Shown piece after piece: positions 684-17,398 of a stretch of DNA of 18,404 bases (positions are counted from its first letter, which is position 1; each line of letters begins with the position of its first letter). The notes under the pieces are model-generated. The model was not told the origin of the DNA, did no database searches, and saw only the letters and a list, made by a program, of their open reading frames with translations. A program made the translations under genes and the position numbers. This DNA comes from a bacterium (GTDB taxonomy: Bacteria; ARS69), in contig JALGZR010000104.1 of NCBI GenBank assembly GCA_025774805.1, positions 1-18,404 of the forward strand, in the 5' to 3' direction.

Positions 684-3600
684 ATGCCGTTCCGCAAGAT
701 CGAGCCGAAGACCGACTTTCCCGCCCTCGAGCGGGAGATCCTCGGGTTTTGGGACGAGTCGAAGGCGTTCGAGGAGCTTCGCGCGATCAACGCCGGCAAG
801 CCTCGCTGGTCGTTCCTGGACGGACCGATCACCGCCAACAATCCCATGGGCGTGCACCACGCGTGGGGGCGCACCTACAAGGACGTCTACCAGCGCTACC
901 ACGCGGCGATCGGGCGGGAGCTCCGCTACCAGAACGGTTTCGACTGCCAGGGTCTCTGGGTCGAGGTCGAGGTCGAGAAGGAGCACCGCTTCACGTCCAA
1001 GCGGGACATCGAGGCGTTCGGCGTCGACCGGTTCGTGGAGGAGTGCAAGGCCCGGGCGAGGAAGTTCGCGGCGGTCCAGACGGAGCAGTCCAAGCGCCTC
1101 GGTTACTGGATGGACTGGGACGACTCCTACTACACGTTCTCCGACGACAACAACTACGGCATCTGGGCGTTCCTGCGGAAGTGCCATGAGAAGGGGCTGA
1201 TCTACAAGGGCTCCGACGTCATGCCCTGGTGCCCCCGGTGCGGGACCGGGATCAGTCAGATGGAGATGACCGAGGGATATCGCGAGGTCGGCCACCCCTC
1301 GATCTTCGTCACGTTCCCGCTCCGTGACCGACCCGGGCAGAGCCTGCTCGTCTGGACCACGACGCCCTGGACGCTGACCTCCAACGTGGCGGCCGCCGTC
1401 CATCCGGACACGACGTATGTCCGGGTCCGGGTCGGGGACGAGTCCTGCTGGGTGGGCAAGGCCCAGTTCGAGAGCCCGAGATCGCATCCGATCGCGGAGC
1501 GTCGCCCCGATCTGCCGGAACTCATGGCGATCTCCGCGCTCTTCCGGAACCGGGGTCCCTGGACGATCGAGGAGGAAGCTCCCGGATCGACGCTGGTCGG
1601 CCTCGCCTACGACGGTCCGTTCGACCACCTCGAGGGAGCGAGCGAGGCTCCCGGAGCGCACCGCGTCATCGCCTGGGACCTGGTCAGCGAGTCGGAGGGA
1701 ACCGGCATCGTGCACATCGCGCCCGGCTGCGGGAGCGAGGACTACGAGCTCGGCCGGGAGCACGACCTCCCCCGGATCGCTCCCCTGCTCGAGGACGGAA
1801 GATTCGGTCCCGGTTTCGACGCGCTCACCGGCAAGCGGTTCGACGAGGTGCCCGACGATGTGATCGAGGATCTGAAGCGTCGGGGACGTCTGTTCGCGCG
1901 GGAGACCTACCACCATCGCTACCCGCACTGCTGGCGTTGCCGGGCGGAGCTCGTCTACCGGCTCGTCGACGAGTGGTTCATCGACATGAGCTGGCGCGAG
2001 GAGATCATGGACTCCACCCGCTCCGCCCGCTGGATTCCGGAGTGGGGGATGGAGCGCGAGCTCGACTGGCTGCGCAACATGGGCGACTGGATGATCTCGA
2101 AGAAGCGCTACTGGGGTCTCGCGCTTCCCATCTGGGAGTGCGGGGATTGCGGCCGGTTCGAGGTCATCGGCGGCCGGGAGGATCTCGAGGCCCGGGCCGT
2201 GCGGGGCTGGGAGGAGTTCGACGGCCACTCTCCCCACCGCCCGTGGATCGACACGGTGAAGATCCGCTGCGAGGGGTGCGGGAACGAGGAGGTCTCCCGC
2301 ATCGCCGACGTCGGGAACCCCTGGCTCGACGCCAGCATCGTCTCGCTCACCACGATGGGGTACTTCTCCGACCGCGAGTACTGGGAGAAGTGGTTTCCCG
2401 CCGACTTCGTGGTGGAGGCGCTGGCCGGACAGTTCCGGAACTGGTTCTACGCGCTCCTGGCCGTCAGCACGATGATGGTCGGCAGGTCCCCGTTCAAGGT
2501 GCTCAAGGGACACGGCCTCGTCGTGGACGACGAGGGCAAGCCGATGCACAAGTCCACCGGCAACGCCATCGCGTTCGACGAGGCGGCCGAGGACATCGGG
2601 GTTGACGTGATGCGCTGGCTGTTCGCGTCGACTCCCCCCGAGCGCAATCTGCTGTTCGGCCCCGTGCACAGCGACGAGGTACGCCGCGAGGTCATCCTCC
2701 CCTGGTGGAACGTATATGCGTTCTTCTGCAATCTCGCCCGCGTCGACGGGTTCGATCCCCGACGGCACACGGCCGAGGAGAGTGAGCGATCCCTCCTCGA
2801 CCGGTGGGTCCTCTCCGAGCTCCACCGCGTCGTCGGGGGCGCGCACGAGGCCTATTCGGAGTTCGACGTGGCCCGCCTCTGTGTCCGGGCCCACCGGTTC
2901 ATCGAGAAGCTCAGCACCTGGTACGTGCGTCGATCGCGGCGACGCTTCTACGGAGAGGAGTGGACCGCCGACAAGAGGGCGGCGTACTCGACGCTTTACG
3001 AGGTTCTCACGACCTTCAACCGGGTCGTGGCCCCGATCCTGCCGTTCATGTCCGAGAGCATGTACCAGAACCTCGTGGCCGAGCAGGTTCCCGATTCGCC
3101 GCGGAGCGTGCACCATGTTCCGTTCCCGGCCGCGCGACCGGTGGTCGTCGACGACGCGCTCGGGGCCAGGGTCGACGCGCTGATCCGCATCGTCTCGCTG
3201 GGCCGCGCGGCCCGCAAGGAGTCGCGGCTCAAGGTCCGCCAGCCGCTGGCGGAGCTGATCGTCGTGACCCGGGACCCGACGGAGAGGGAGGCGATCGAGG
3301 TCTTCCGGGAGCACGTCCTCGAGGAGCTCAACGTGCTTCGGGTCACGCTGCGGGACTCGGGGAAGGGGCTCGTCACGCACGAGGTCGCGGCCGACATGAA
3401 GAGCCTGGGGCCGAAGCTCGGTCGTGCCGCGCCCGCCGCCAAGGAGTCGATCGCCGGACTCGACGCGGGGAAGGTGAGCGCCGCCTTCGACTCGGGCGAA
3501 CGGGTCTCGATCCTCGTCGAGGAGGCCGAGATCGAGCTCGAGTCGACGGACGTCCGGATCGCCAAGCGTTACGCCGAAGGCTGGGCCGGCGCGGACGGGG

Positions 3601-3911
3601 GAGCCACCGTCGTCCTCGTGGACACCCGGATCACACCCGAGCTCCGGCGCGCGGGACTCGCCCGCGAGATCATCCGCCACGTCCAGAACCTGCGACGGGA
3701 GGCGGCCCTCGATCTCGGCGATCGGATCCGGATCGCCGTCGTCACCGACTCCCCCGACATCCGCGAGGTGGTCGGCGAGCACGGCGACGCGATTCGCCGG
3801 GAGATCCTGGCCGAGGAGATCCTCTGGTCCCCTCTGCCGGGGGAGCCCGTCCGCCGGGCCGTCGACATCGGGGAGAGCCGCCTCGACCTGGAGCTGATCA
3901 AGGTCGGGTGA
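684..3911 (+). CDS. ileS: Isoleucine--tRNA ligase, type-2-like with GXHH signature
   Basis: This cytoplasmic class I synthetase charges tRNA-Ile with isoleucine and proofreads valine. The start ATG follows GAGGAG at a good distance. The protein has 1075 residues, longer than the roughly 940 of E. coli-type IleRS. The first signature motif is altered: residues 56-59 read GVHH rather than HxGH, within PMGVHHAWGR. The second signature is KPMHKSTGN at 619-627 in place of KMSKS. The CP1 editing domain shows the Thr-rich WTTTPW at 224-229 and GCGSED with the editing Asp at 353. Cys pairs at 183/186, 416/419, 486/489 and 529/532 suggest zinc knuckles. The anticodon-binding domain begins after about residue 690. 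No C-terminal Cys cluster is visible, as expected for type 2 enzymes. It stands alone, with a 354-nt gap downstream. Confidence 0.97.
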   Translation: MPFRKIEPKTDFPALEREILGFWDESKAFEELRAINAGKPRWSFLDGPITANNPMGVHHAWGRTYKDVYQRYHAAIGRELRYQNGFDCQGLWVEVEVEKEHRFTSKRDIEAFGVDRFVEECKARARKFAAVQTEQSKRLGYWMDWDDSYYTFSDDNNYGIWAFLRKCHEKGLIYKGSDVMPWCPRCGTGISQMEMTEGYREVGHPSIFVTFPLRDRPGQSLLVWTTTPWTLTSNVAAAVHPDTTYVRVRVGDESCWVGKAQFESPRSHPIAERRPDLPELMAISALFRNRGPWTIEEEAPGSTLVGLAYDGPFDHLEGASEAPGAHRVIAWDLVSESEGTGIVHIAPGCGSEDYELGREHDLPRIAPLLEDGRFGPGFDALTGKRFDEVPDDVIEDLKRRGRLFARETYHHRYPHCWRCRAELVYRLVDEWFIDMSWREEIMDSTRSARWIPEWGMERELDWLRNMGDWMISKKRYWGLALPIWECGDCGRFEVIGGREDLEARAVRGWEEFDGHSPHRPWIDTVKIRCEGCGNEEVSRIADVGNPWLDASIVSLTTMGYFSDREYWEKWFPADFVVEALAGQFRNWFYALLAVSTMMVGRSPFKVLKGHGLVVDDEGKPMHKSTGNAIAFDEAAEDIGVDVMRWLFASTPPERNLLFGPVHSDEVRREVILPWWNVYAFFCNLARVDGFDPRRHTAEESERSLLDRWVLSELHRVVGGAHEAYSEFDVARLCVRAHRFIEKLSTWYVRRSRRRFYGEEWTADKRAAYSTLYEVLTTFNRVVAPILPFMSESMYQNLVAEQVPDSPRSVHHVPFPAARPVVVDDALGARVDALIRIVSLGRAARKESRLKVRQPLAELIVVTRDPTEREAIEVFREHVLEELNVLRVTLRDSGKGLVTHEVAADMKSLGPKLGRAAPAAKESIAGLDAGKVSAAFDSGERVSILVEEAEIELESTDVRIAKRYAEGWAGADGGATVVLVDTRITPELRRAGLAREIIRHVQNLRREAALDLGDRIRIAVVTDSPDIREVVGEHGDAIRREILAEEILWSPLPGEPVRRAVDIGESRLDLELIKVG

Positions 3912-4146: not shown

Positions 4147-4254
4147 CACGCCAGGCCCTCTCCGGGGAAGGGAAGGAAAGGAAGGGAAAAGGGGGACGAA
4201 GGCAAAGGGGATTTCGCGAAGGGGTGAGCGCTCTTCCGGACCGAGTCCTCGATC

Positions 4255-4260
4255 AGGAGG
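4255..4260 (+). promoter_or_regulatory. Shine-Dalgarno AGGAGG that fixes the kinase 1 start
   Basis: A perfect AGGAGG lies 5 nt before ATG 4266. The reading frame is open further upstream to a TTG at 4095, but that extension encodes low-complexity Lys/Arg/Gly sequence from the purine tract and has no ribosome binding site, so 4266 is preferred. Confidence 0.8.
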
Positions 4261-4265
4261 CGGTC

Positions 4266-7121
4266 ATGGCATCGATGCGACCCCGGCAGCCCGTGTGGTC
4301 CCCGGCCCCGGGGAACGGCGGAGGATCGGACGCCCCCCCCGATCCACCTCTCGAACCGGAGGACGAGACCCTCACCCGGGAGGTAGAGAGTAAGGTCCGA
4401 TCCCCCGGGCCGGACCGCCGGGGATCGCCCGAGCGTGTCGGCCAGTACCACATCAAGCGCGTGATCGCCTCGGGAGGGATGGGCGTCGTCTACGAGGCGC
4501 TCCAAGAGAAGCCCCGCCGTTCCGTCGCGCTCAAGCTGATGAAGCCCGGCATCGTTTCTTCCACGGCGCAGCGGCGATTCGAGTTCGAAGCGCAGCTCCT
4601 CGCGCGTCTCCACCACCCCGGCATCGCGCAGATCTACGAGGCGGGTACCCATCTCGAGGGGGACACGTCGACGCCTTACTTCGCCATGGAGTACATTCCG
4701 GGCGCCCTTCCGATCACGGAATACGCCACGCGCAAGAAGCTCGGTGTCCGCGAGCGCCTCGACCTCTTCCGGCAGGCGTGCGATGCGGTGCACCACGGGC
4801 ATCAGAAGGGAATCATTCACCGCGATCTCAAGCCGGACAATGTGCTCATGGATTCGCGGGGACGCGTGAAGATCATCGACTTCGGGGTCGCGCGGTCCAC
4901 CGACTCCGACATGGCGTTCACTACGATGCAGACCTCGGTGGGGCAGCTCCTCGGAACGCTTCAGTACATGAGCCCGGAGCAGATCCATGGGGATCCGAGC
5001 GACATCGATACTCGCAGCGACGTCTACTCGCTCGGGATCATCCTCTACGAGCTCCTGTGCAACGCCCTTCCCTACGACGTGAGAAGGTCCTCGATGCTCG
5101 AGGCGACTCGCGTCGTTCAGGAGGACCCGCCCCGGCGGCCGAGCACGGTCGATCGGCGGCTGAAGGGCGACGCGGAGACGATTGTCCTCAAGGCGCTCGA
5201 GAAGGATCGCGATCGCCGGTATCAGTCAGCCTACGGGTTGAGCCAGGACATCGGACGGTTCCTAATGGGAGAGCCCATCGTCGCGCACGCCCCGAGCCTG
5301 TTCTACCAGGTCAGGATCTTCGCTCGGCGGCACAAGCCGCTCCTGGCCGGGGTGCTCGGCATCTTCGTCTCGCTGGCCGCCGGAATCGTGGTCTCCACGA
5401 CCCTTTACTTTCGCGCGGAGTCCGCCCGCAAGGCGGCCGACGTCGAACGGGATCGAGCCTTGGAGGCCGAGGAGAGGACGCGGGTGATCAACGATTTCCT
5501 GCTGAGCGACCTGCTCGGGGCGGCCGATCCGGAGGAGGCTCAGGGTCGCGAGATCACCGTGAACGAGGTGGTTCGATCCGCGGCACGCGAGGTCGGCACT
5601 TCGTTCTCCGACCGGCCCGGTCTCGAAGTCCCGATTCGGATCACCCTGGGCGAGCTCTTCCTCCAGCTCGGACAGTACGCCGAGGCGCAGGAGCAGATCG
5701 AGGCGTCGGCGAACCTCTCGTTGGAGAAGTTGGGAGACGAGGACGTGCGCACTCTCGAAGCGGTACGAGCTCGGGCCGGTCTCTTTGCGGAGACCGGCGA
5801 TGACGAGAACGCCATTCCGATCTATCGGGACGTCCTCGAGAAGCAGCGTCGGATCCTCGGCGATCGTGCCCCCTCGACATTAAAGACGATTCACGACTTG
5901 GGAATCACGCTCATGCAGTCGGGCGCGCTGGAGGAGGCCGAACCCATTCTCCGAGAAGGCCTGGAGGGGCGACGCGAGGTCCTCGGGGAAGGCCACGAGG
6001 ACACCATCGAATCCATGCTGGGGCATGCCGACGTGATCAGCTACCTGTGGGGTCAGTCCCTGGACGAGGCCTTCGCGGAGAGCGCGGTGAGGGAGTACGA
6101 GGAAACGCTCGCCGCTTGCGACCGGTACCTCGGGGGGCGGCACCCGGTCACCCTCGTCTGCCTGAACAACTTCGCCAGCACTCTGTGGAAGATGGGGAGA
6201 CCCGAGGAGGCCGCACCGATGTTCCGCCGCGGCATCGAAGTGGAACGGGTCGTGCATGGAGACGACCATCCCTACACCCTCATTGCGCTCCATAATCTCG
6301 CCCTCCTGCTTCTGAGGCTGGGGGAGACGGAGGAACCCGCGGACCTCTTCCGCGAATCCGTTGCCGGTTGGCGTCGACGTCCCCCCGACCGCCGGCGTTT
6401 TCTCACGACGAACGGCTACGCGGAGTACCTGATTACGCAGGGAAAGGCGGCGGAGGCGGAGTCCCTCTTGGCTGAAGAGCTCGTCGTGGCGGATGAATTC
6501 CTCGGACTGGACGACTCCGGCACCCTGAGGATCGCGGTGAACCTCGGGTGGGCCCTTCGTTCGCAGGGGCGCCTCGCCGACGCTGAGCCCTACTACCGGC
6601 GAACGTTGGAGGGTAGGGAGAGATCGCTCGGTCCCGATCACCAGTACACCCTCCGGGTGATGGCCCAGCTCGGGAATCTGATCAGCCAGCGGGGCCGACA
6701 CGAGGAGGGGGAGCGGCTGGCGCGCGAGTCTCTCGACCGGGCGCGAGGCGCGCTTCCGGCGGGACACTCCCAGCTCGCCTCGATTCTCGAATACCTCGCA
6801 CAGATTCTGCTGGACACGGACCGACCCGCCGACGCCGAGCCGCACCTCGACGAAGCGCTCGCCATTCGAAAGGAGAAGGGCTCGCCGGTGCAGATCGCGG
6901 AGTGCGAGAGCCTCCTGGGCGCGTGCTTCACCCGACTGGAGCGCTTCGCAAAGGCCGAAGAGCTGCTCGTCCGGGCTTACCGGGTCATTCATAAAGACCG
7001 GGGAGAAGGGTACTTCACCCGGAGGCTCGTCCGGCAGCGAATCACCGACCTCTGCGAACAGATGGGAGAGCCCGAGCGCGAGCGGGAGCTTCTCGCTCGG
7101 ATCGAGGTCGCAGGATCCTAG
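4266..7121 (+). CDS. Membrane Ser/Thr protein kinase with C-terminal TPR array
   Basis: This 951-residue PknB/Hanks-type kinase should phosphorylate Ser/Thr on unknown partners. About 60 Pro-rich, probably disordered residues precede the catalytic domain. The glycine loop is GGMG at 70-73, the ATP-binding Lys is K90, the catalytic loop is HRDLKPDN with D187, the DFG motif is at 205-207, and GTLQYMSPEQ closes the activation segment. All catalytic residues are present, so it should be active. One membrane helix follows at about 358-382, then a juxtamembrane coiled segment. From about residue 440 to the end there is an array of 42-residue TPRs of the kinesin-light-chain type (for example LGEGHEDTI, HPVTLVCLNNFA, HPYTLIALHNLA). 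Topology predicts kinase inside and TPRs outside, suggesting a receptor or scaffold. The gene converges on the DUF2723 gene. The partner is unknown. Confidence 0.93.
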   Translation: MASMRPRQPVWSPAPGNGGGSDAPPDPPLEPEDETLTREVESKVRSPGPDRRGSPERVGQYHIKRVIASGGMGVVYEALQEKPRRSVALKLMKPGIVSSTAQRRFEFEAQLLARLHHPGIAQIYEAGTHLEGDTSTPYFAMEYIPGALPITEYATRKKLGVRERLDLFRQACDAVHHGHQKGIIHRDLKPDNVLMDSRGRVKIIDFGVARSTDSDMAFTTMQTSVGQLLGTLQYMSPEQIHGDPSDIDTRSDVYSLGIILYELLCNALPYDVRRSSMLEATRVVQEDPPRRPSTVDRRLKGDAETIVLKALEKDRDRRYQSAYGLSQDIGRFLMGEPIVAHAPSLFYQVRIFARRHKPLLAGVLGIFVSLAAGIVVSTTLYFRAESARKAADVERDRALEAEERTRVINDFLLSDLLGAADPEEAQGREITVNEVVRSAAREVGTSFSDRPGLEVPIRITLGELFLQLGQYAEAQEQIEASANLSLEKLGDEDVRTLEAVRARAGLFAETGDDENAIPIYRDVLEKQRRILGDRAPSTLKTIHDLGITLMQSGALEEAEPILREGLEGRREVLGEGHEDTIESMLGHADVISYLWGQSLDEAFAESAVREYEETLAACDRYLGGRHPVTLVCLNNFASTLWKMGRPEEAAPMFRRGIEVERVVHGDDHPYTLIALHNLALLLLRLGETEEPADLFRESVAGWRRRPPDRRRFLTTNGYAEYLITQGKAAEAESLLAEELVVADEFLGLDDSGTLRIAVNLGWALRSQGRLADAEPYYRRTLEGRERSLGPDHQYTLRVMAQLGNLISQRGRHEEGERLARESLDRARGALPAGHSQLASILEYLAQILLDTDRPADAEPHLDEALAIRKEKGSPVQIAECESLLGACFTRLERFAKAEELLVRAYRVIHKDRGEGYFTRRLVRQRITDLCEQMGEPERERELLARIEVAGS

Positions 7122-9493: not shown

Positions 9494-11803
9494 TCACCTT
9501 CGAAGGACCACCCTCTGCGTCTGCCGAAACGCACCCTCCTCGATCCGATAGAAGTAGACTCCGGACGCGACGGCCTCGCCGGTTCCGTTCCGACCGTCCC
9601 AGCGGACTGTGTGCCGCCCGGGTCCCTGGGGGCCGTCCACGAGGCCCCGGACCAGGCGGCCGGCGACGTCGTGGACCGTGAGTCGAACCGGAGTCGCGTG
9701 GGGCAGGTCGTACGCGACGCGGACGGTGCCCGAGGAGGGGCTCGGGAAGGGACGGTGGAGCCGCACTGTGGACGGGGAATCGCCCGCGGGGGGCACGACC
9801 ACGGTCGCGGCCGTGTCCACTCCCGCCACGGCCGCGACGGTGGACACTGCGATCCGGGTGACGTTCGCGATCAGCGGGATGTCGAGCAGACCGAGCGTGT
9901 CGCCGATCGTGTGATGCTGTGCCGGAGGGGGATCCCAGCTCTGGATGCCGACGATCGCGTCGAACCCCGCCGCCCAGAACGAGGCGTGGTCGCTCCAGGT
10001 GCAGGTCGGGCAGTGCCAGTGGTACGTCGTCAGGTCAGGAGCGTAGGCCGCGGCCATCGTGTGAGCGATGGACCCGAGCCATTCGGAGTCGTCGTTCGAG
10101 AAGATCCGGAAAAAGGAATCGTTCCATCCGACGGAGTCCAGATTGAACACGCCGACGATGGGAGTCCCCTGAGCCAGGGCTCGTGCAGCGTACGCCTCGC
10201 TTCCCAGAAGCCCGATCTCCTCCCCCGTGAAACAGACGAGCTTGACGGTTCGTTCGTAGCGCGCCCGGCTCAGATGGCGGGCGGACTCGAGGATCGCGGC
10301 GATGCCGGATCCGTTGTCATCGGCTCCGGGAGCGAGCTCTCCCGGATGCGGCCAGTCGGAGATCGAGTCGTAGTGACCGACGAGGAGGACCTCTTCCTCC
10401 GGCCGGTCTCTCCCCGGGAGAGTCGCCACGACGTTGGCCCAGCCGTCAGGGATCGTGACCTCCCGCTGCTCCCAATTGGCGCCGCCGTCGGTCGTCCTGA
10501 AGAGAACTGCGCTCAGGCCGGAGATCCAGACGACATTCTCCGACGCCGCGTGAACGCGCTTCAGGATCACGTTCGGGATCGGGCTCGACTGGGGCGTCCA
10601 GGTGCTCCCCGCATCGGTGGTGTACAGGATGGTGCTGAAGTCCCCGACGACCCAGCCGGTCGTGGCGTCGACGAACGAGACGCCGTTGAGATCGAATGCC
10701 GTTCCGCCCGTCTGCGCGATCCACGTGGCCCCCCGATCGGTCGAGTGGATCAAGCTCCCGGCGTCACCGACCGCCCATCCCGAGTCCCCGACGAAGACGA
10801 CCCCCCGGAGTTTCTCGACCAGACCGCTCACGACGGGGCCCCAACTCGATCCTCCGTCGGTCGTTCGCAGCACGAGTCCGGACACGCCCGTGACGACGGC
10901 CTCGGTGTCCGAGAGAGCGTCCACGTCGAGGAGGGTCGAGGTCGTTCCGCTCACCTGGTCGGTCCACGTGACTCCGCCATCCGTGGTCCGCAGAATGACC
11001 CCATTCTTGCCGACCGTCCATCCCGTGCCGCTGGAGCGAACGGAGACTCCGCGCAGGTGATCCGTGGCGCTGCTCGTCCGGACCATCCACTCCAATCCCC
11101 CGTCGTCGGAGGTGGCGATGAACCCGAGATTCCCGACGGCGACGACACGAGTGCCCGTGACCCGGTCGAGATCTCTCACGGTATCGGTGTAGTTCTCGAT
11201 TCCTTCGCGTGTCCGCTCCCAGGACGTCCCGTCCGTCGAGCGGAGAATGCGTCCCCGCCCTCCTCCCCAGAGCATCTCCCCCGTCGGCAGGACGAGAATC
11301 GGCTCCAGACTGAAAGGGAAGTTGAGGTATTGCATCTCGATGTCGTAGCCGTAGGAGTCGAAGGCCCGGCCCAGGAACTCGGCAGCATGCTCGGCCCCGA
11401 TCCCCGTCGTATAGCGAGACACGATCGTTACCGATCCCCAGTCGAAGGTGACCGGAGCTTCGCCGGTCAGCTTCTCGAGAAACGCGTAAATCGAATCCTC
11501 GTCCACTCGAGCGACCATCGAAGCGACGATCGAGTCCGCGGCGGACTCGGCGGGGGCCGGCGGACGAGGAATCGGAACGGCGTCCGCGGGGGTCGTTCGA
11601 TCGGTCTCGACTCCCGGCAGCGGGTCGGCAGGCGACGCGGTCGTCGAGGCGTGCACGAATCCCGGAACGGCAACGGTGGCGAGGATCAGCGTAAGACCCG
11701 CGCGCAGAAGGAGCGCGACCCGGGACGACGCGATGCCGGAATCGCGCGACGAGACGTCCGAAGCCCGGCGTGGATTCGCTCCAGGCAGAGGATCATCATG
11801 CAT
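9494..11803 (-). CDS. Secreted M28 metallo-aminopeptidase with embedded Asp-box propeller and FlgD-like C-terminus
   Basis: This 769-residue exported protein starts at ATG 11803 with GAGGGGG upstream. A hydrophobic signal segment spans about 28-52 and is preceded by an unusually long N-region. The M28 zinc site is complete: H477 (GHYDS), D496 (GADDNGSG), E528 as general base and E529 (FTGEEIGLLGS), D556 (NLDSVGW) and H606 (SDHASFW). Between the N-terminal part of the peptidase fold (about 100-165) and the catalytic core (about 450 onward) lie seven repeats of about 41 residues. Each has an Asp-box-like TTDGGxxW, with Trp at 195, 239, 280, 321, 361, 402 and 444, as in YCF48/BNR propellers. Residues 683-769 form a FlgD-like/type IX-style C-terminal domain (DVAGRLVR, WDGRNGTGEAVASGVYFYR). 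It probably releases N-terminal residues from peptides at or outside the surface. It has its own promoter. Confidence 0.92.
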   Translation of the reverse strand: MHDDPLPGANPRRASDVSSRDSGIASSRVALLLRAGLTLILATVAVPGFVHASTTASPADPLPGVETDRTTPADAVPIPRPPAPAESAADSIVASMVARVDEDSIYAFLEKLTGEAPVTFDWGSVTIVSRYTTGIGAEHAAEFLGRAFDSYGYDIEMQYLNFPFSLEPILVLPTGEMLWGGGRGRILRSTDGTSWERTREGIENYTDTVRDLDRVTGTRVVAVGNLGFIATSDDGGLEWMVRTSSATDHLRGVSVRSSGTGWTVGKNGVILRTTDGGVTWTDQVSGTTSTLLDVDALSDTEAVVTGVSGLVLRTTDGGSSWGPVVSGLVEKLRGVVFVGDSGWAVGDAGSLIHSTDRGATWIAQTGGTAFDLNGVSFVDATTGWVVGDFSTILYTTDAGSTWTPQSSPIPNVILKRVHAASENVVWISGLSAVLFRTTDGGANWEQREVTIPDGWANVVATLPGRDRPEEEVLLVGHYDSISDWPHPGELAPGADDNGSGIAAILESARHLSRARYERTVKLVCFTGEEIGLLGSEAYAARALAQGTPIVGVFNLDSVGWNDSFFRIFSNDDSEWLGSIAHTMAAAYAPDLTTYHWHCPTCTWSDHASFWAAGFDAIVGIQSWDPPPAQHHTIGDTLGLLDIPLIANVTRIAVSTVAAVAGVDTAATVVVPPAGDSPSTVRLHRPFPSPSSGTVRVAYDLPHATPVRLTVHDVAGRLVRGLVDGPQGPGRHTVRWDGRNGTGEAVASGVYFYRIEEGAFRQTQRVVLRR

Positions 11804-11935: not shown

Positions 11936-14266
11936 TCATCGAGGCGCGTCGCCCTCCGGATCGGCTTCCGGCGGCAGGACGGCGCTACCTCCCGAGCTCT
12001 CTCGCACGGTTCGCAGGTCGTCCGCAATCCGACGGTCGCCCGGCCGAAGCGCGGCCGCCATCTCCAGGAACGGGAGAGCGGTTCGGAGGTCCCGCTCTTT
12101 GATGTGGGCCAGGCCGAGGGTGTGCTGGGGGAGAGGAGCAAAGGGAAGGTCATCCACCCATTCGTCCGTGGGATCGGTTGGGGGAGGCTCGCGTTCCGCC
12201 TGTCGTGCCAGGTCGACACCGGCGGCAAGATCCAAGTCCCCGGCCACGAGAATCCATCCGAGCAGGGCTCGGCTCAGGAATGTCGGATCCCGCCTCAGCG
12301 CTTGCTCCGCGTACCGTCGGGCCTCGGTATACTGCTCCTGCTCGCTGAACAGATAGCCCAGCTCTCGAAGCGTTTGGGGATGGCCGTCGTCGATCCGCAG
12401 CGCCGTTCGGTACCAACTCTCGGATTCCGTGTAGTCTCCCTGTCTGAGATGAAGCCGCCCCATGCCCCGGAGGGCGTCCAGGTCCTTCGGTGCCACCTCC
12501 AGGACGGTCTCATACTCCCGTCGAGCGGCGTCGTGGCGGGACATCGATTCGTACAGGGCAGCCAGCCGGGAACGCGTGTCCAGGTTGCCCGGGACGAGGG
12601 AGAGGGCCCGTCGATAGAGCTCCTCGGCTCTCCGGGTCTCACCGGCTCGCTGATAGTGACCGGCGCAATCCGCCAGAAGGCGATGTCTGTCCAGCCGCAG
12701 CGCCCCGATATTGTAGGCGTGTTCCAGAACGCTGTCCGCTTCCGCATAGCGCCCCGACGAGACGAGAGCCTCCAGGAGGCTGGTGTAGGACAACGCGGCG
12801 GAAGGATGACTCTCGATTCGCCGGCGCGCCATCTCGATCGCCTGCTCGATCTTCCCCGAGTACAGGTACGAGTAGGACCGCTCCGACAACGCGCCGATGT
12901 GACCGGGCTCGACAGCCAGCGCACGATCCGCGTAGAGTCCTGCGCTTTCATACTCGCGCCGAAGATTGGCGATGCTGGCCAACTCGGCGTTGATGCTCGG
13001 ATCTCCGGACGATGTTTCCAGAGCTTCGGCTCTGCGAAGCAGGATCTCGGCCCGATCGAGATGAAGATTGGTCTTGTGGATGAATGTCGCTTTGAGAAGC
13101 AGATCGACCTTCCCGGCGGGAGAGGGAATGGCGTCCACGCCAACGTCGAGGGCACTATCGGCCTCCGACAGCCGAAAGGCGCTCACGAGCGAGTGGACCA
13201 ATTCACCGTGCCGGCGCGGCTCTTGGGGCCTCATCTCGACCAACTTCCTGGCGTACTCGATCGCCCGGTCCCACTCCCGGTCGGCCATGGCCAAGTACCA
13301 TAATCCCCCCAGACACCATGAGCTGAGAGGGTTCAGCTCCAGGCCTTTCTCCCAGACTTCCCGGGCTTCCTCATACTTTTCCTGATTGAAGAGCGCGTCT
13401 CCGAGCTGCGCGAAGATCCGGTAGTCGGTAGTCTCGGGGTTGTAAGCCAGTGCCTGTCGCGTATAGAGCTCGGACTTCACCTGATCTTCGATGCGATTGC
13501 ACGCCAGGCCCATGTGATAGTAGAGCGCTTGCAGGTCTCCGGGCGCCTTGTGATGAAGCAGCGCCTGCTGCAGGGTCAGGTCGATCTGGGCCGAGTCTCC
13601 CCTGCCGATGGCCGCTTCCACCATGTACCGGTACCCCATGGGGCTCTCGGGCCGGATCGTGATCAGGGCTCTGGCCATTTCTTCGACCTTGCGGTATTCC
13701 CGGGCCGGCAAATGAATGTTTACGACTTCTCGATAGGGGAGTACGAACGCCAGGTCGAGATCGATCGCCTTCTGAAAGGCCGCGAGAGCCTCATCGTATT
13801 TCATGGCGCTTTCGCTCGAATACGCCAAGCCCAACGCAAAGTGGATCTCCTTGTCGTCCGGGAATCTGTTCGCCAGGTCCTTGTGGATCGCCAGTGCGTC
13901 GGTGAATCGACGATCGATCAGAGCCAGAGCTCCTTCCGCCAGTAACCTCTCCCGCTCCGTCGTGTATCGCTTGTTGTCCAGGATTCGTGCGATGGACGCC
14001 CGACCCTGCTGAGTTGAGACATCGTCGGACCACCACTGGGCGATGGCCATCCAGTAGTACGCCTGGTTGAAGGTCGGATCGATCTCCACGGCGCTCCGGA
14101 ATTCGGCGATGGCTGATGCGAGAGCGGAGGCGTATAGAAGATCCATCCCCGCCAAGTAGTGCCGATAGGCCTCCATCGACGTGGTCGTCTTCTCCCGAAC
14201 GGCAATATCGAAGCGGAAGGCCGAGATCCTCCCGGATCTGATCCGACAGACTGTCGACCAAGTCAT
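11936..14266 (-). CDS. TPR half of frameshifted kinase 2
   Basis: This open frame encodes at least a dozen tandem TPRs (AEFRSAVEIDPTFNQAYYW, YEEAREVWEKGLELNP, YTEARRYAEQALRRDPTF) ending at TGA 11936. The first about 20 codons from ATG 14266 are an out-of-frame reading of the preceding kinase gene. Real homology seems to begin near FDIAVREK at about 14212, which should follow the kinase protein's SDQIREDLGLPLR. There is no convincing ribosome binding site at 14266, so independent translation is doubtful. In related kinases the TPRs form the extracytoplasmic C-terminus. If joined to the kinase half by removing one base, the product would be about 1237 residues. Some expression by internal initiation cannot be excluded. 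Confidence 0.8.
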   Translation of the reverse strand: MTWSTVCRIRSGRISAFRFDIAVREKTTTSMEAYRHYLAGMDLLYASALASAIAEFRSAVEIDPTFNQAYYWMAIAQWWSDDVSTQQGRASIARILDNKRYTTERERLLAEGALALIDRRFTDALAIHKDLANRFPDDKEIHFALGLAYSSESAMKYDEALAAFQKAIDLDLAFVLPYREVVNIHLPAREYRKVEEMARALITIRPESPMGYRYMVEAAIGRGDSAQIDLTLQQALLHHKAPGDLQALYYHMGLACNRIEDQVKSELYTRQALAYNPETTDYRIFAQLGDALFNQEKYEEAREVWEKGLELNPLSSWCLGGLWYLAMADREWDRAIEYARKLVEMRPQEPRRHGELVHSLVSAFRLSEADSALDVGVDAIPSPAGKVDLLLKATFIHKTNLHLDRAEILLRRAEALETSSGDPSINAELASIANLRREYESAGLYADRALAVEPGHIGALSERSYSYLYSGKIEQAIEMARRRIESHPSAALSYTSLLEALVSSGRYAEADSVLEHAYNIGALRLDRHRLLADCAGHYQRAGETRRAEELYRRALSLVPGNLDTRSRLAALYESMSRHDAARREYETVLEVAPKDLDALRGMGRLHLRQGDYTESESWYRTALRIDDGHPQTLRELGYLFSEQEQYTEARRYAEQALRRDPTFLSRALLGWILVAGDLDLAAGVDLARQAEREPPPTDPTDEWVDDLPFAPLPQHTLGLAHIKERDLRTALPFLEMAAALRPGDRRIADDLRTVRESSGGSAVLPPEADPEGDAPR

Positions 14267-15650
14267 GGACGTCCATCCCGTCGATCCGTTGCGACCGGAC
14301 GATCTCGCCGCTGCCGACGTCGATCAACTGGCAGGTCAAAGTCCATTGTCCCTCGAACCGCATGATGGCGCCGTCGAGCATCAGGCTGGCGCCCGCGCGC
14401 CTCGCGACTTCGGCGGCCACCTCTTCGTCAATCCGGACTCGGTGCGTGTACCCCAGCTGCTTCTGCAGATCAAAGAGTCTCTGACTGCTGAGCACACGCA
14501 GAGAAGAGACCTCGGACAAATCGGTGATCACCAGTTCCTGCAGGATCTGTCCGAGTCGATCGGCGTCCTCGGGATCGGCCAAATTGTCGAAGCCGAGGAC
14601 TGCGAGTGCCTTCGTATCGATCCCTGCGCGCTGCTGTCCACCGCCTGGGCGGATGTCACGCCAGACCATCACGGCCCAGGCGACTGACGCGACCACAACG
14701 GTACCGACGGTCCACGCGACCCATCGAGGCCGCTTGGGACCGCGGTCGAGCCGGCTCGTCGACTTCTCGGTCTCGAGGATCTCCGCGCGAACGGCCGCCA
14801 GGTCACGAAGCAGATCCTCCATCCTCTGGTCGCGATCTGCCGGGTCTTTGGCGAGGCAGCGGTCGACGATCCTCCGGAGGCCCCGCGGGTAACTGCCGAC
14901 GTCCGAGAGGGGCCCCGGCGCCTTGTTGCAGATTGCGTGGAGGAGCGCCCCGGTGGACTCCTCCCAAAAGGGGAGCCGGCCGCTGAGCATCTCGTAGAGG
15001 ATGACGCCGAGCGACCAGATGTCCGTCCGGTGATCGACGGCTCTTCCTTCGGCTTGCTCCGGGGACATGTAGGCCAGGGTGCCGGGGACGGTTCCCTCAC
15101 CCGTGAGCGACGTATGGTCCGGCAGCTTGGCGATCCCGAAGTCGAGGATCTTCACTTCATCCCGTTCGGTGATCATGATGTTCGCGGGCTTGATGTCGCG
15201 ATGAATGATTCCTTCATCATGGGCACGGGCCAGCCCCTGACCAATCAACATCGCGATCCTGACGGCCTCGGATGGTTCGAGGGGACCTCGCCGAATCCGG
15301 GCGAGCAGGGTCTCCCCCGGGCAGTACGCCATGCAGATGAACAGCTGCCCGTCGTCCGTCTCGTCGATCTCGTGGATCGTACACACGTTGGGGTGATCGA
15401 GAGCGGAGGCCGCTCGGGCCTCTCTCACAAAACGTTTCCGACGGTCGTTGTCGTGGGTCATTTGGGGAGGAAGGAATTTCAGGGCGACGATGCGCTCGAG
15501 TCTCGTGTCCTCGGCTTCGTAAACAACTCCCATGCCCCCTTGTCCGATCTTCCGGAGAAGACGGTACCTGCCGATGACCTCGGGAGGGTCGGACGGGGGT
15601 GGAGAGCGGCTCGCCTCCGCCGAATCGGGTCGAGACGTCTCGTCAGTCAC
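13791..15650 (-). CDS. Ser/Thr kinase half of frameshifted kinase 2
   Basis: This is a PknB-type kinase preferred from GTG 15650, which has GGAG 8 nt upstream. An in-frame ATG at 15806 has no ribosome binding site, and a promoter lies between the two. In GTG numbering: glycine loop GQGGMG near 37-42, ATP Lys K58, HRDIKPAN with D152, DFG at 170-172, GTLAYMSPEQ in the activation segment, and a membrane helix about 310-330. After the helix comes a TolB-N/FlgO-like region (AVLGFDNLAD, LRVLSSQRLFDLQKQLG, LMLDGAIMRFEGQW), common in kinase- or cyclase-TPR receptors. Sense coding ends near GLPLR (14208). The last about 140 codons to 13791 are the wrong frame of the TPR region and look non-native (Arg/Gly/Ser-rich). 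As assembled, the product keeps an intact kinase but lacks its TPRs. Confidence 0.85.
   Translation of the reverse strand: MTDETSRPDSAEASRSPPPSDPPEVIGRYRLLRKIGQGGMGVVYEAEDTRLERIVALKFLPPQMTHDNDRRKRFVREARAASALDHPNVCTIHEIDETDDGQLFICMAYCPGETLLARIRRGPLEPSEAVRIAMLIGQGLARAHDEGIIHRDIKPANIMITERDEVKILDFGIAKLPDHTSLTGEGTVPGTLAYMSPEQAEGRAVDHRTDIWSLGVILYEMLSGRLPFWEESTGALLHAICNKAPGPLSDVGSYPRGLRRIVDRCLAKDPADRDQRMEDLLRDLAAVRAEILETEKSTSRLDRGPKRPRWVAWTVGTVVVASVAWAVMVWRDIRPGGGQQRAGIDTKALAVLGFDNLADPEDADRLGQILQELVITDLSEVSSLRVLSSQRLFDLQKQLGYTHRVRIDEEVAAEVARRAGASLMLDGAIMRFEGQWTLTCQLIDVGSGEIVRSQRIDGMDVHDLVDSLSDQIREDLGLPLRYCRSGEDDHVDGGLSALLGGDGSSIRLRSRISHRRIPERRGDRSDLQPGVLLDGHRPVVVRRCLNSAGSGVHRTNPGQQAIHDGAGEVTGGRSSGSDRSSIHRRTGDPQGPGEQIPGRQGDPLCVGLGVFERKRHEIR
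14200..14235 (-). other. +1 frameshift junction inside kinase 2
   Basis: The kinase frame reads DQIREDLGLPLR up to 14208, while the TPR frame continues with DIAVREKTTTSMEAY from 14209. Moving between them needs a skip of one base, so the sequence carries one extra base (or lacks two) here. The local minus-strand sequence CTTCCGCTTCGATATT has no homopolymer run and no stop codon at the shift site, which argues against a classic programmed slip. Confidence 0.75.
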
Positions 15651-15949
15651 CTGGTGCACTCCGCGTGGCCGGAGGGCGGATCCCTGTAAGATTACACCAG
15701 TTCGGACCTTTGAGCAGTCGACGTTTCCGGGAAGTTCGCAACTCCGGTTCGCGTGCGCGGCCTGCGCTCCGCTGATGTTCGTGTCGAGACGAATCGGCCG
15801 AGACATGGGGCGGGAGAATCACGCGATGCTCCCTCATCTGTCTGGGTCAACGTGCCGGAACAACGGGTGAAGACACCGACCGGCCGAGAGAAGAGCGCTG
15901 GAGCTCACTTCCTTCGGTGGACGGCGGCGATGACGACGGGCGACTGCCG
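15651..15949 (-). other. 299-nt intergenic region, pyk to kinase 2
   Basis: I see no gene here. It contains the kinase 2 promoter at 15691-15696 and a stretch that is open in the kinase frame up to ATG 15806 but lacks coding character. No clear terminator for pyk is visible. Confidence 0.55.
15691..15696 (-). promoter_or_regulatory. -10 box of kinase 2 promoter
   Basis: Minus-strand TGTAAT matches TATAAT at 5 of 6 positions and lies about 40 nt before GTG 15650. The -35 is weak: TCGACT at a 19-nt spacing is the best I see. Its position inside the longest open frame supports the internal GTG start. Confidence 0.4.
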
Positions 15950-17398
15950 TCAGGATCTGTCCACGACGTCCGCCACTCCCCCATCCCCGACCGTCACGAT
16001 TCTGACCAAGTTCGTGCATCCCGGCCGATGCAACGGCAACCCCGCCGTCAGTACCGCCCGGTCCCCCGCCTTCAGATGCCCCTCCGCAAACGCCGCCGTC
16101 AACGCCTGCCTCTCTAGCTCCTCCGCGTCGTCCACCGGTGCCACCCGCAACGGCACCGCCCCCCATACCAGCGCCAAGGCCCGCCACGTCTTCTCCTCCC
16201 CCGTCAATGCCAGGATCGGCTGCCGCGGCCGGTACTTGGCCACGAGCCGCGTCGTCGAGCCGCTCTTGGTCAGCGTGAGGATCGCGGCGGCGTCCACCGC
16301 GTCGGCGGTCTGGCAGGCGGCGCGGGCCGCCGCCTCATCGATGTCCAGCGCCGCGTGCGTGTCGTAGCGGGCGCGCCACTCCCGGTAGGGGAACATGGCC
16401 TCGGCGGCGCGGGCGATGCGGTCCATGGCGCGCACGGCGGCCACGGGGTGGTCGCCCACGGCGGTCTCCTCCGAGAGCATCACGGCGTCGCTGCCGTCGA
16501 GGATGGCGTTGGCCACGTCGGAGACCTCGGCGCGCGTGGGGCGCGGGTTGTCGACCATGGAGCGCAGCATCTGGGTCGCGGTGATCACGGGGCGGGCCTC
16601 GCGGTTGGCGGCGGCGATCAGTTGCTTCTGGATGGACGGGACCTCCTCGAAGGGGATCTCCACGCCCAGATCTCCGCGGGCCACCATCACGGCGTCCACC
16701 TCCGCGAGGATCGCCGCGTAGTTGTCGATGCCGAGCCGCTGCTCGATCTTGGCCACCAGGGGCGCGTCGCCGCCGTGACGTGCCATGGCCGCCGCCGCGG
16801 CGTGCACGTCCGCGGACGTGCGCACGAAAGACAGCGCCACGTAGTCCACGCCGCTGGCCAGGCCCAGGGCCAGGTCGGCCTCGTCCTCGTCGTCCAGGAT
16901 GGGCGCGCCGATCGTGCCGCTCGGTAGGTTGATGCCCTTGTGAGAGCTCAGCTCCCCGCCCACGATCACCCGGCAGATGATGTCCGGGCCGTCGATGCGC
17001 TCGACGCTCAGCTCGAGGGCGCCGTCGGCCAACAGCAGCGCGTCTCCGGGCGTCACGTCGCGCGGCAGGTTCTTGTAGACCAGGCCCACCTCGGACTCGT
17101 TGCCGGGCACATCGCGCGCCGTGAGGGTGAAGATCTGGTCGTGACGGAGCTGGACGGGCTCATCGGCGAAGGCGCCGATGCGGACCTTCGGCCCCGCCAG
17201 GTCCTGGAGGACCGCTACCGGCCGACCCACGCGCGCGGCCACGTCCCGCACGCGGACGATCAGCTCCCGGTGGAACTCGCGCTCGCCGTGGGAGAAGTTC
17301 AGTCGGACCACGTCCACGCCGGCGGCGAGCAGCTCCGCGAGGACCGGTTCCTCCCACGTGGACGGGCCCAGAGTGGCGACGATCTTGGTGCGACGCAC
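15950..17398 (-). CDS. pyk: Pyruvate kinase
   Basis: This glycolytic enzyme converts phosphoenolpyruvate and ADP to pyruvate and ATP in the cytoplasm. The 482-residue length fits the bacterial enzyme without an extra C-terminal PEP-utiliser domain. The start is GTG 17398, set by a perfect AAGGAGG 5 nt upstream. Visible active-site residues are R32, N34 and S36 (VRLNFSHG), DLAGPKVR with D66 and K71, the HKGINLPSG segment at 153-161, the VAKIEQ pair K217/E219 that holds the catalytic Lys and a metal ligand, the metal ligand D243 in MVARGDLGVEI, and T275 in ITATQML. The C-terminal allosteric domain is present (TKSGSTTRLVAKYRP). It is monocistronic as far as can be seen and is divergent from the GntR gene 236 bp away. 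Confidence 0.97.
   Translation of the reverse strand: MRRTKIVATLGPSTWEEPVLAELLAAGVDVVRLNFSHGEREFHRELIVRVRDVAARVGRPVAVLQDLAGPKVRIGAFADEPVQLRHDQIFTLTARDVPGNESEVGLVYKNLPRDVTPGDALLLADGALELSVERIDGPDIICRVIVGGELSSHKGINLPSGTIGAPILDDEDEADLALGLASGVDYVALSFVRTSADVHAAAAAMARHGGDAPLVAKIEQRLGIDNYAAILAEVDAVMVARGDLGVEIPFEEVPSIQKQLIAAANREARPVITATQMLRSMVDNPRPTRAEVSDVANAILDGSDAVMLSEETAVGDHPVAAVRAMDRIARAAEAMFPYREWRARYDTHAALDIDEAAARAACQTADAVDAAAILTLTKSGSTTRLVAKYRPRQPILALTGEEKTWRALALVWGAVPLRVAPVDDAEELERQALTAAFAEGHLKAGDRAVLTAGLPLHRPGCTNLVRIVTVGDGGVADVVDRS

Follow-up and report, generated by a model that had tools for sequence, protein, structure and literature searches.

The DNA stretch analysed here (the window, 18,404 nucleotides) encodes a type 2 isoleucyl-tRNA synthetase (IleRS2) in which the HIGH and KMSKS regions, the textbook signatures of class I synthetases, are both rewritten, together with the GWDxHGLP and DQxRGWF motifs. 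All 100 homologues that we classed in the same clade have the four changes together, each combining MH(K/R) with (G/A/C/M)xHH. The explanation that we regard as likely is that of a housekeeping IleRS2 with four jointly rewritten motifs and predicted insensitivity to mupirocin, the gene for which has replaced the resident ileS across phyla.

The protein scores about 686 bits (685.6–686.1) against the IleRS model TIGR00392, over the curated equivalog cut-off of 621.4, and 563.1 and 515.4 bits against the MupA and MupB models (NF000257 and NF000258), under their exception cut-off of 1900. A reading made from the sequence alone had judged the length of the protein and its lack of C-terminal cysteines to fit type 2. 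Both points held: in the 1075-residue enzyme the last cysteine is residue 733, and the type 1 zinc cysteine cluster is absent from the C-terminal domain, which matches DUF5915 (Table 1). The editing domain keeps TTTPWTL and HxAP...D (His344 and Asp353), and the editing motifs are intact in 98 to 100 of the 100 clade members.

Table 1. Coordinates of ileS and of its diagnostic segments in the window.
Feature	Residues	Position	Strand	Evidence
ileS, type 2 isoleucyl-tRNA synthetase, 1075 aa		684..3911	+	TIGR00392; Pfam PF00133/PF08264/PF19302; tree; AlphaFold2 model
DGPITANNPMGVHH, remodelled HIGH region (D/EGPPxANG...HxGH in others)	46-59	819..860	+	Alignment
GVHH, in class I HXGH column	56-59	849..860	+	164-row alignment, codons, regular expression
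GFDCQGLW, for GWDxHGLP; His to Gln at 89, Pro to Trp at 92	85-92	936..959	+	Alignment; Q89 in 100/100 clade members
HIAPGCGSED, editing-site segment	344-353	1713..1742	+	Conserved; His/Asp pair in 100/100 clade members
GQFRNWF, for DQxRGWF; one residue inserted after conserved Glu (Glu578)	582-588	2427..2447	+	Alignment
PMHKS, in class I KMSKS column	620-624	2541..2555	+	Alignment; MH invariant in 100/100 clade members
C-terminal DUF5915 domain, without Cys	876-1072	3309..3899	+	Pfam match and Cys positions

The codons at positions 849–860 (GGC GTG CAC CAC) encode Gly56, Val57, His58, and His59, and a 164-sequence synthetase alignment places them opposite HIGH of Escherichia coli K-12 IleRS (L119) and HTGH of MupA (L120). 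The alignment thus bears out the sequence-only reading that GVHH replaces the class I HxGH motif, an observation that also stands after a regular-expression search over the entire window protein, which found no HxGH and no K(M/L)SK at any position. All 100 clade members have His58 and His59, and 97 of them have Gly at position 56, so GVHH is not a product of chance or sequencing error. Across the same 100 sequences, the residue at position 56 is G, A, C, or M. Clade members L012, L014, and L165 read CVHH, MLHH, and AVHH, so that the first motif position is not restricted to Gly or Ala, and Cys and Met go past the published G/A. The GXHH motif in IleRS2 and its link to mupirocin are already published and hence not new (main text of PMC10485003), and a variable position 56 beside an invariant His58 lends support to the view put forward there that the third-position histidine is what counts.

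The sequence-only reading was silent on the changes to KMSKS, GWDxHGLP, and DQxRGWF. In the window enzyme PMHKS stands where KMSKS is expected, and His58, His59, Gln583, Met621, and His622 are invariant among the 100 clade members, a set drawn from the 80 best loci among 159 candidates and from sampled genomes. Each of the 100 homologues with GXHH and MH(K/R) has Gln at position 89, and the Asp of the DQ pair is replaced by Gly in 96 and by Glu in four. Because the four Glu-bearing members (L073, L081, L097, and L151), which read EQIRLWF without the insertion, form an early branch of the clade, the sequences suggest an order of change in which GXHH, Gln89, MHKS, and the loss of the Asp came first, with the inserted residue and GQFRNWF arising later. 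The main text of PMC10485003 does not discuss changes in KMSKS, DQ, or GWDxHG, and a literature search returned no papers on MHKS in IleRS or on the KMSKS motif of Planctomycetes IleRS.

In trees of IleRS sequences built with the motif columns excluded, sequences with GXHH and MHKS form a monophyletic clade (support 100) that is sister to the other type 2 IleRS (support 99). Archaeal and type 1 IleRS fall outside the type 2 group, with type 1 separate at 99, and the wider join that includes the divergent type 2-like L179 and L184 has a support of 90. The window enzyme therefore groups with type 2 as had been proposed, and a placement with type 1 IleRS was rejected. The tree calls for three changes of GXHH and four of MHKS. 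GXHH enzymes of the other IleRS2 branch (L090, L092–L096, L098, and L121 from Nonomuraea) retain KMSKS and DQxRGWF, and MHKS is also found in IleRS from Asgard-group archaea (L173–L175 and L181) and in one type 1 IleRS (L191). MHKS is therefore a recurrent change that is not specific to the GXHH clade, and we dropped the notion that it is exclusive to it.

The best 80 loci come from Planctomycetota, Chloroflexota, Fidelibacterota, Bathyarchaeota, Pseudomonadota, Acidobacteriota, Myxococcota, Armatimonadota, and others, mostly as metagenome-assembled genomes (MAGs). Eight of the 80 are from archaeal MAGs, seven of Bathyarchaeota and one of Thorarchaeota; single MAG occurrences could reflect binning errors. 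The three archaeal clade genomes that we searched contain no other IleRS above E 1e-60, and their further matches of about 240 bits appear to be ValRS. Among 385 other genomes, sampled mainly across families, the clade motifs occur in 19 (~5%), counted from motif tables as 18 loci above E 1e-200 and one truncated locus (L097). L191 (G401:C110), from the genome of L040, is a natural type 1 IleRS with HLGQ and TMHKS that occurs alongside an MHKS-clade IleRS2. According to the main text of PMC10485003, replacement of the fourth His of HIGH by Gln is reported only for laboratory-selected mupirocin-resistant Staphylococcus aureus.

Alteration of highly conserved catalytic residues at four motifs could mean that the protein is no longer an isoleucyl enzyme but one for a different amino acid, or a paralogue with no part in translation. 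We consider this very improbable, as neither the window genome nor 23 of the 25 other clade genomes examined has a second recognised IleRS (the genomes of L040 and L065 have an additional type 1 IleRS), the window genome carries separate ValRS-, LeuRS-, and MetRS-like genes, the editing motifs are intact, and the score passes the IleRS equivalog cut-off. The sequence-only reading had called this the only visible IleRS, and the genome, from a bin that is 96% complete, indeed has a single full ileS. The best reading of these sequences is that the window gene encodes the housekeeping IleRS2 of the cell, presumably as a working enzyme.

A second contig of the window genome (C110, 53.8 kb) ends in another ileS start (L193) that is 96% identical over 51 amino acids, which looks like a strain allele from a bin containing two strains. 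Compared with this contig, positions 1–843 of the window lack two stretches of ~520 and ~340 bases, and with them the greater part of a lipoprotein-like ORF that lies upstream of ileS, a difference due either to strain heterogeneity or to an assembly effect. The phylum is represented in the genomes examined by five from one family, the window genome and four others. Three of the four carry a major-branch GVHH IleRS2 that is 33–36% identical to the window enzyme, while in the fourth (82% complete) no IleRS2 of that kind was found. Because the other genomes of the family carry a GXHH IleRS2 unlike that of the window, ileS appears to have been exchanged across lineages, and horizontal transfer has probably replaced one GXHH IleRS2 by another in the window lineage. 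The words 'without acquiring mupA' in the sequence-only reading hold in substance, since mupA encodes a different, HXGH type 2 enzyme, but the window gene itself looks horizontally acquired.

The same observations could arise if the contig were mis-binned and its IleRS belonged to another organism. Bin contamination is 5.06%, the IleRS2 differs from those of the same-family genomes, and the pyruvate kinase on the contig matches other lineages more closely, at 60%, than it does the family, at 47%. Against this, the best outside matches of a TMEM260-like/TPR protein 3 kb downstream of ileS are in same-family genomes (44–49%), with all others far weaker, the 96% complete bin has no other ileS, and the second contig carries its own allele of the same ileS start. 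The contig thus seems to be rightly binned, and we think mis-binning unlikely. The pyruvate kinase (15950–17398, minus strand), for which the 60% match is in an unrelated genome (G055), may also have been horizontally exchanged. Elsewhere in the window, a Ser/Thr kinase ORF and a TPR ORF (11936–15806, minus strand) overlap in different frames at ~13791–14266 and look like one kinase–TPR gene broken by a frameshift near 14215, whether real or a sequencing error. A second kinase–TPR protein is encoded downstream of ileS (4209–7118, plus strand), and positions 9497–11803 (minus strand) encode an M28 peptidase that looks secreted and has YCF48-like BNR repeats and, at its C-terminus, a FlgD-like domain.

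An AlphaFold2 model calculated from 22 clade sequences has a mean pLDDT of 88.7 and a pTM of 0.79. Its best structural matches in the PDB are Priestia IleRS2 (PmIleRS2; 8c9d, 8c8v, and 8c8w), ahead of yeast IleRS, Thermus thermophilus IleRS2, and all type 1 entries, and the best PDB sequence match is, by a small margin, the GVHH mutant of PmIleRS2 (8c8w). Confidence is lower around residues 81–90 and near the motifs, and for this reason we do not interpret the rebuilt loops at the atomic level. In the published mechanism, the third-position histidine assumes the role of the first His and clashes with mupirocin (main text of PMC10485003). Following this mechanism, His58 would perform the transition-state role of the first HXGH histidine, a substitution that the displaced helix tip of type 2 enzymes would make workable. 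The bulky side chain would also fill space required by the nonanoate tail and ring of mupirocin, and the drug would thereby be excluded. The KMSKS loop on the opposite side and the DQ loop next to the ribose have been rebuilt too, probably as a matched set from which the ATP pocket forms anew around His58; His622 and Lys623 may stand in for KMSKS functions. Such a matched set is not a requirement of GXHH, as the major-clade GXHH enzymes manage without MHKS. The gene would then have spread between phyla, replacing the resident ileS, which could account for its patchy distribution.

It is also possible, though we lean against it, that the four motifs reflect a general redesign of the active site that has nothing to do with mupirocin, affecting ATP or ribose handling, the balance of tRNA-dependent editing, or substrate fidelity, with mupirocin resistance, if any, as a by-product. 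The clade occurs in Planctomycetota, Chloroflexota, Fidelibacterota, Bathyarchaeota, and other groups, many of whose habitats presumably offer no evident exposure to mupirocin, the changes extend to the DQ loop and GWDxHG, beyond the drug-contact positions, and MHKS recurs in HXGH enzymes that lack GXHH. However, the third-position histidine is the proven block to mupirocin in other IleRS2 (main text of PMC10485003), and the three changes of GXHH on the tree amount to at least two gains, or a gain with reversals, which fits repeated selection; both points are compatible with a general redesign as well.

The link between GXHH and extreme mupirocin resistance, which the sequence-only reading had invoked, is real and published. 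As set out in the main text of Brkic et al. 2023 (PMC10485003), a G/AXHH motif occurs in two clades of type 2 IleRS and is tied to hyper-resistance. The enzymes measured were IleRS2 from Deinococcus radiodurans and Streptomyces griseus and mutants of Thermus and Priestia IleRS2. The two natural G/AXHH enzymes have mupirocin Ki values in the mM range, with that of DrIleRS2 (ALHH) being 6.6 mM and 823-fold lower after restoration of HVGH; introducing GVHH into Thermus or Priestia IleRS2 raises the Ki about 200-fold or more, and IleRS1 with GXHH is inactive (main text of PMC10485003). The window enzyme has this mark of hyper-resistant IleRS2 in its HXGH column. Two of the mupirocin contacts of IleRS1 are missing from its side chains as well, with Gly62 in the Asn70 column and Leu612 in the column of Phe586 (HGF). 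In a docking study of the T. thermophilus IleRS2 pocket, the contacts include Asp553, Gln554, Lys591, Met592, and Ser593 (PMC8282855), and three of these five residues differ in the window enzyme, where the homologous columns include Gly582, Pro620, and His622. By analogy with the measured enzymes, the window enzyme is probably intrinsically insensitive to mupirocin. Judging from the text of PMC10485003, the tested hyper-resistant enzymes sit in the other IleRS2 branch, and the prediction is thus an extrapolation across a deep split to a sister clade in which KMSKS and DQxRGWF are also rewritten, changes that could shift mupirocin binding either way. Our literature search found no assayed enzyme of the window clade and nothing on Bathyarchaeota IleRS and mupirocin.

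We tentatively propose, as an idea that may well prove too broad, that a cross-phylum IleRS lineage, archaea included, carries out essential isoleucine charging with a co-inherited, full rewrite of the main class I catalytic motifs, including a third-position catalytic His and replacement of the central Ser of KMSKS by His. If true, this would represent another way of carrying out class I aminoacyl-adenylate chemistry, one that brings immunity to mupirocin with it. A stable clade with four rewritten motifs would offer natural enzymes with which to probe the limits of active-site rebuilding and the role of drug immunity. Environmental bacteria, and some archaea, may widely be insensitive to mupirocin by nature, with a housekeeping ileS that mupA and mupB models would miss.

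Several known systems resemble the window enzyme in part. The tested G/AXHH IleRS2 enzymes share with it GXHH in the HIGH column, the type 2 fold, and the C-terminal domain (main text of PMC10485003), but KMSKS and DQxRGWF, which GXHH enzymes of that branch retain, are PMHKS and GQFRNWF with its insertion in the window enzyme, which also has GFDCQGLW. MupA, the plasmid-encoded IleRS2 of Staphylococcus, is likewise type 2 and linked to mupirocin resistance. In contrast to the window enzyme, to which it is 31.7% identical, it belongs to a different branch and has HTGH with canonical KMSKS and DQTRGWF. The archaeal enzymes L173–L175 and L181, from the phylum of the Thorarchaeota genome, share the change of KMSKS to (E/P)MHKS, but have HLGT in the HIGH region and an intact DQ, and fall outside the type 2 clade. 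A further parallel is a minor IleRS2 clade with GXHH at its ancestor (node 747), for which Planctomycetota and Chloroflexi are named as under-sampled (main text of PMC10485003). Matched by description only, it resembles the window clade in being a deep sister of other IleRS2 with GXHH, and the window clade is dominated by Planctomycetota and Chloroflexota with Fidelibacterota. The main text of that paper mentions no archaeal members, such as the window clade has, and its figures or supplement may show the KMSKS change. In the window enzyme a known hyper-resistance motif thus stands within a sister branch of IleRS2, whose much wider rewrite of the active site goes undiscussed in the main text of PMC10485003.
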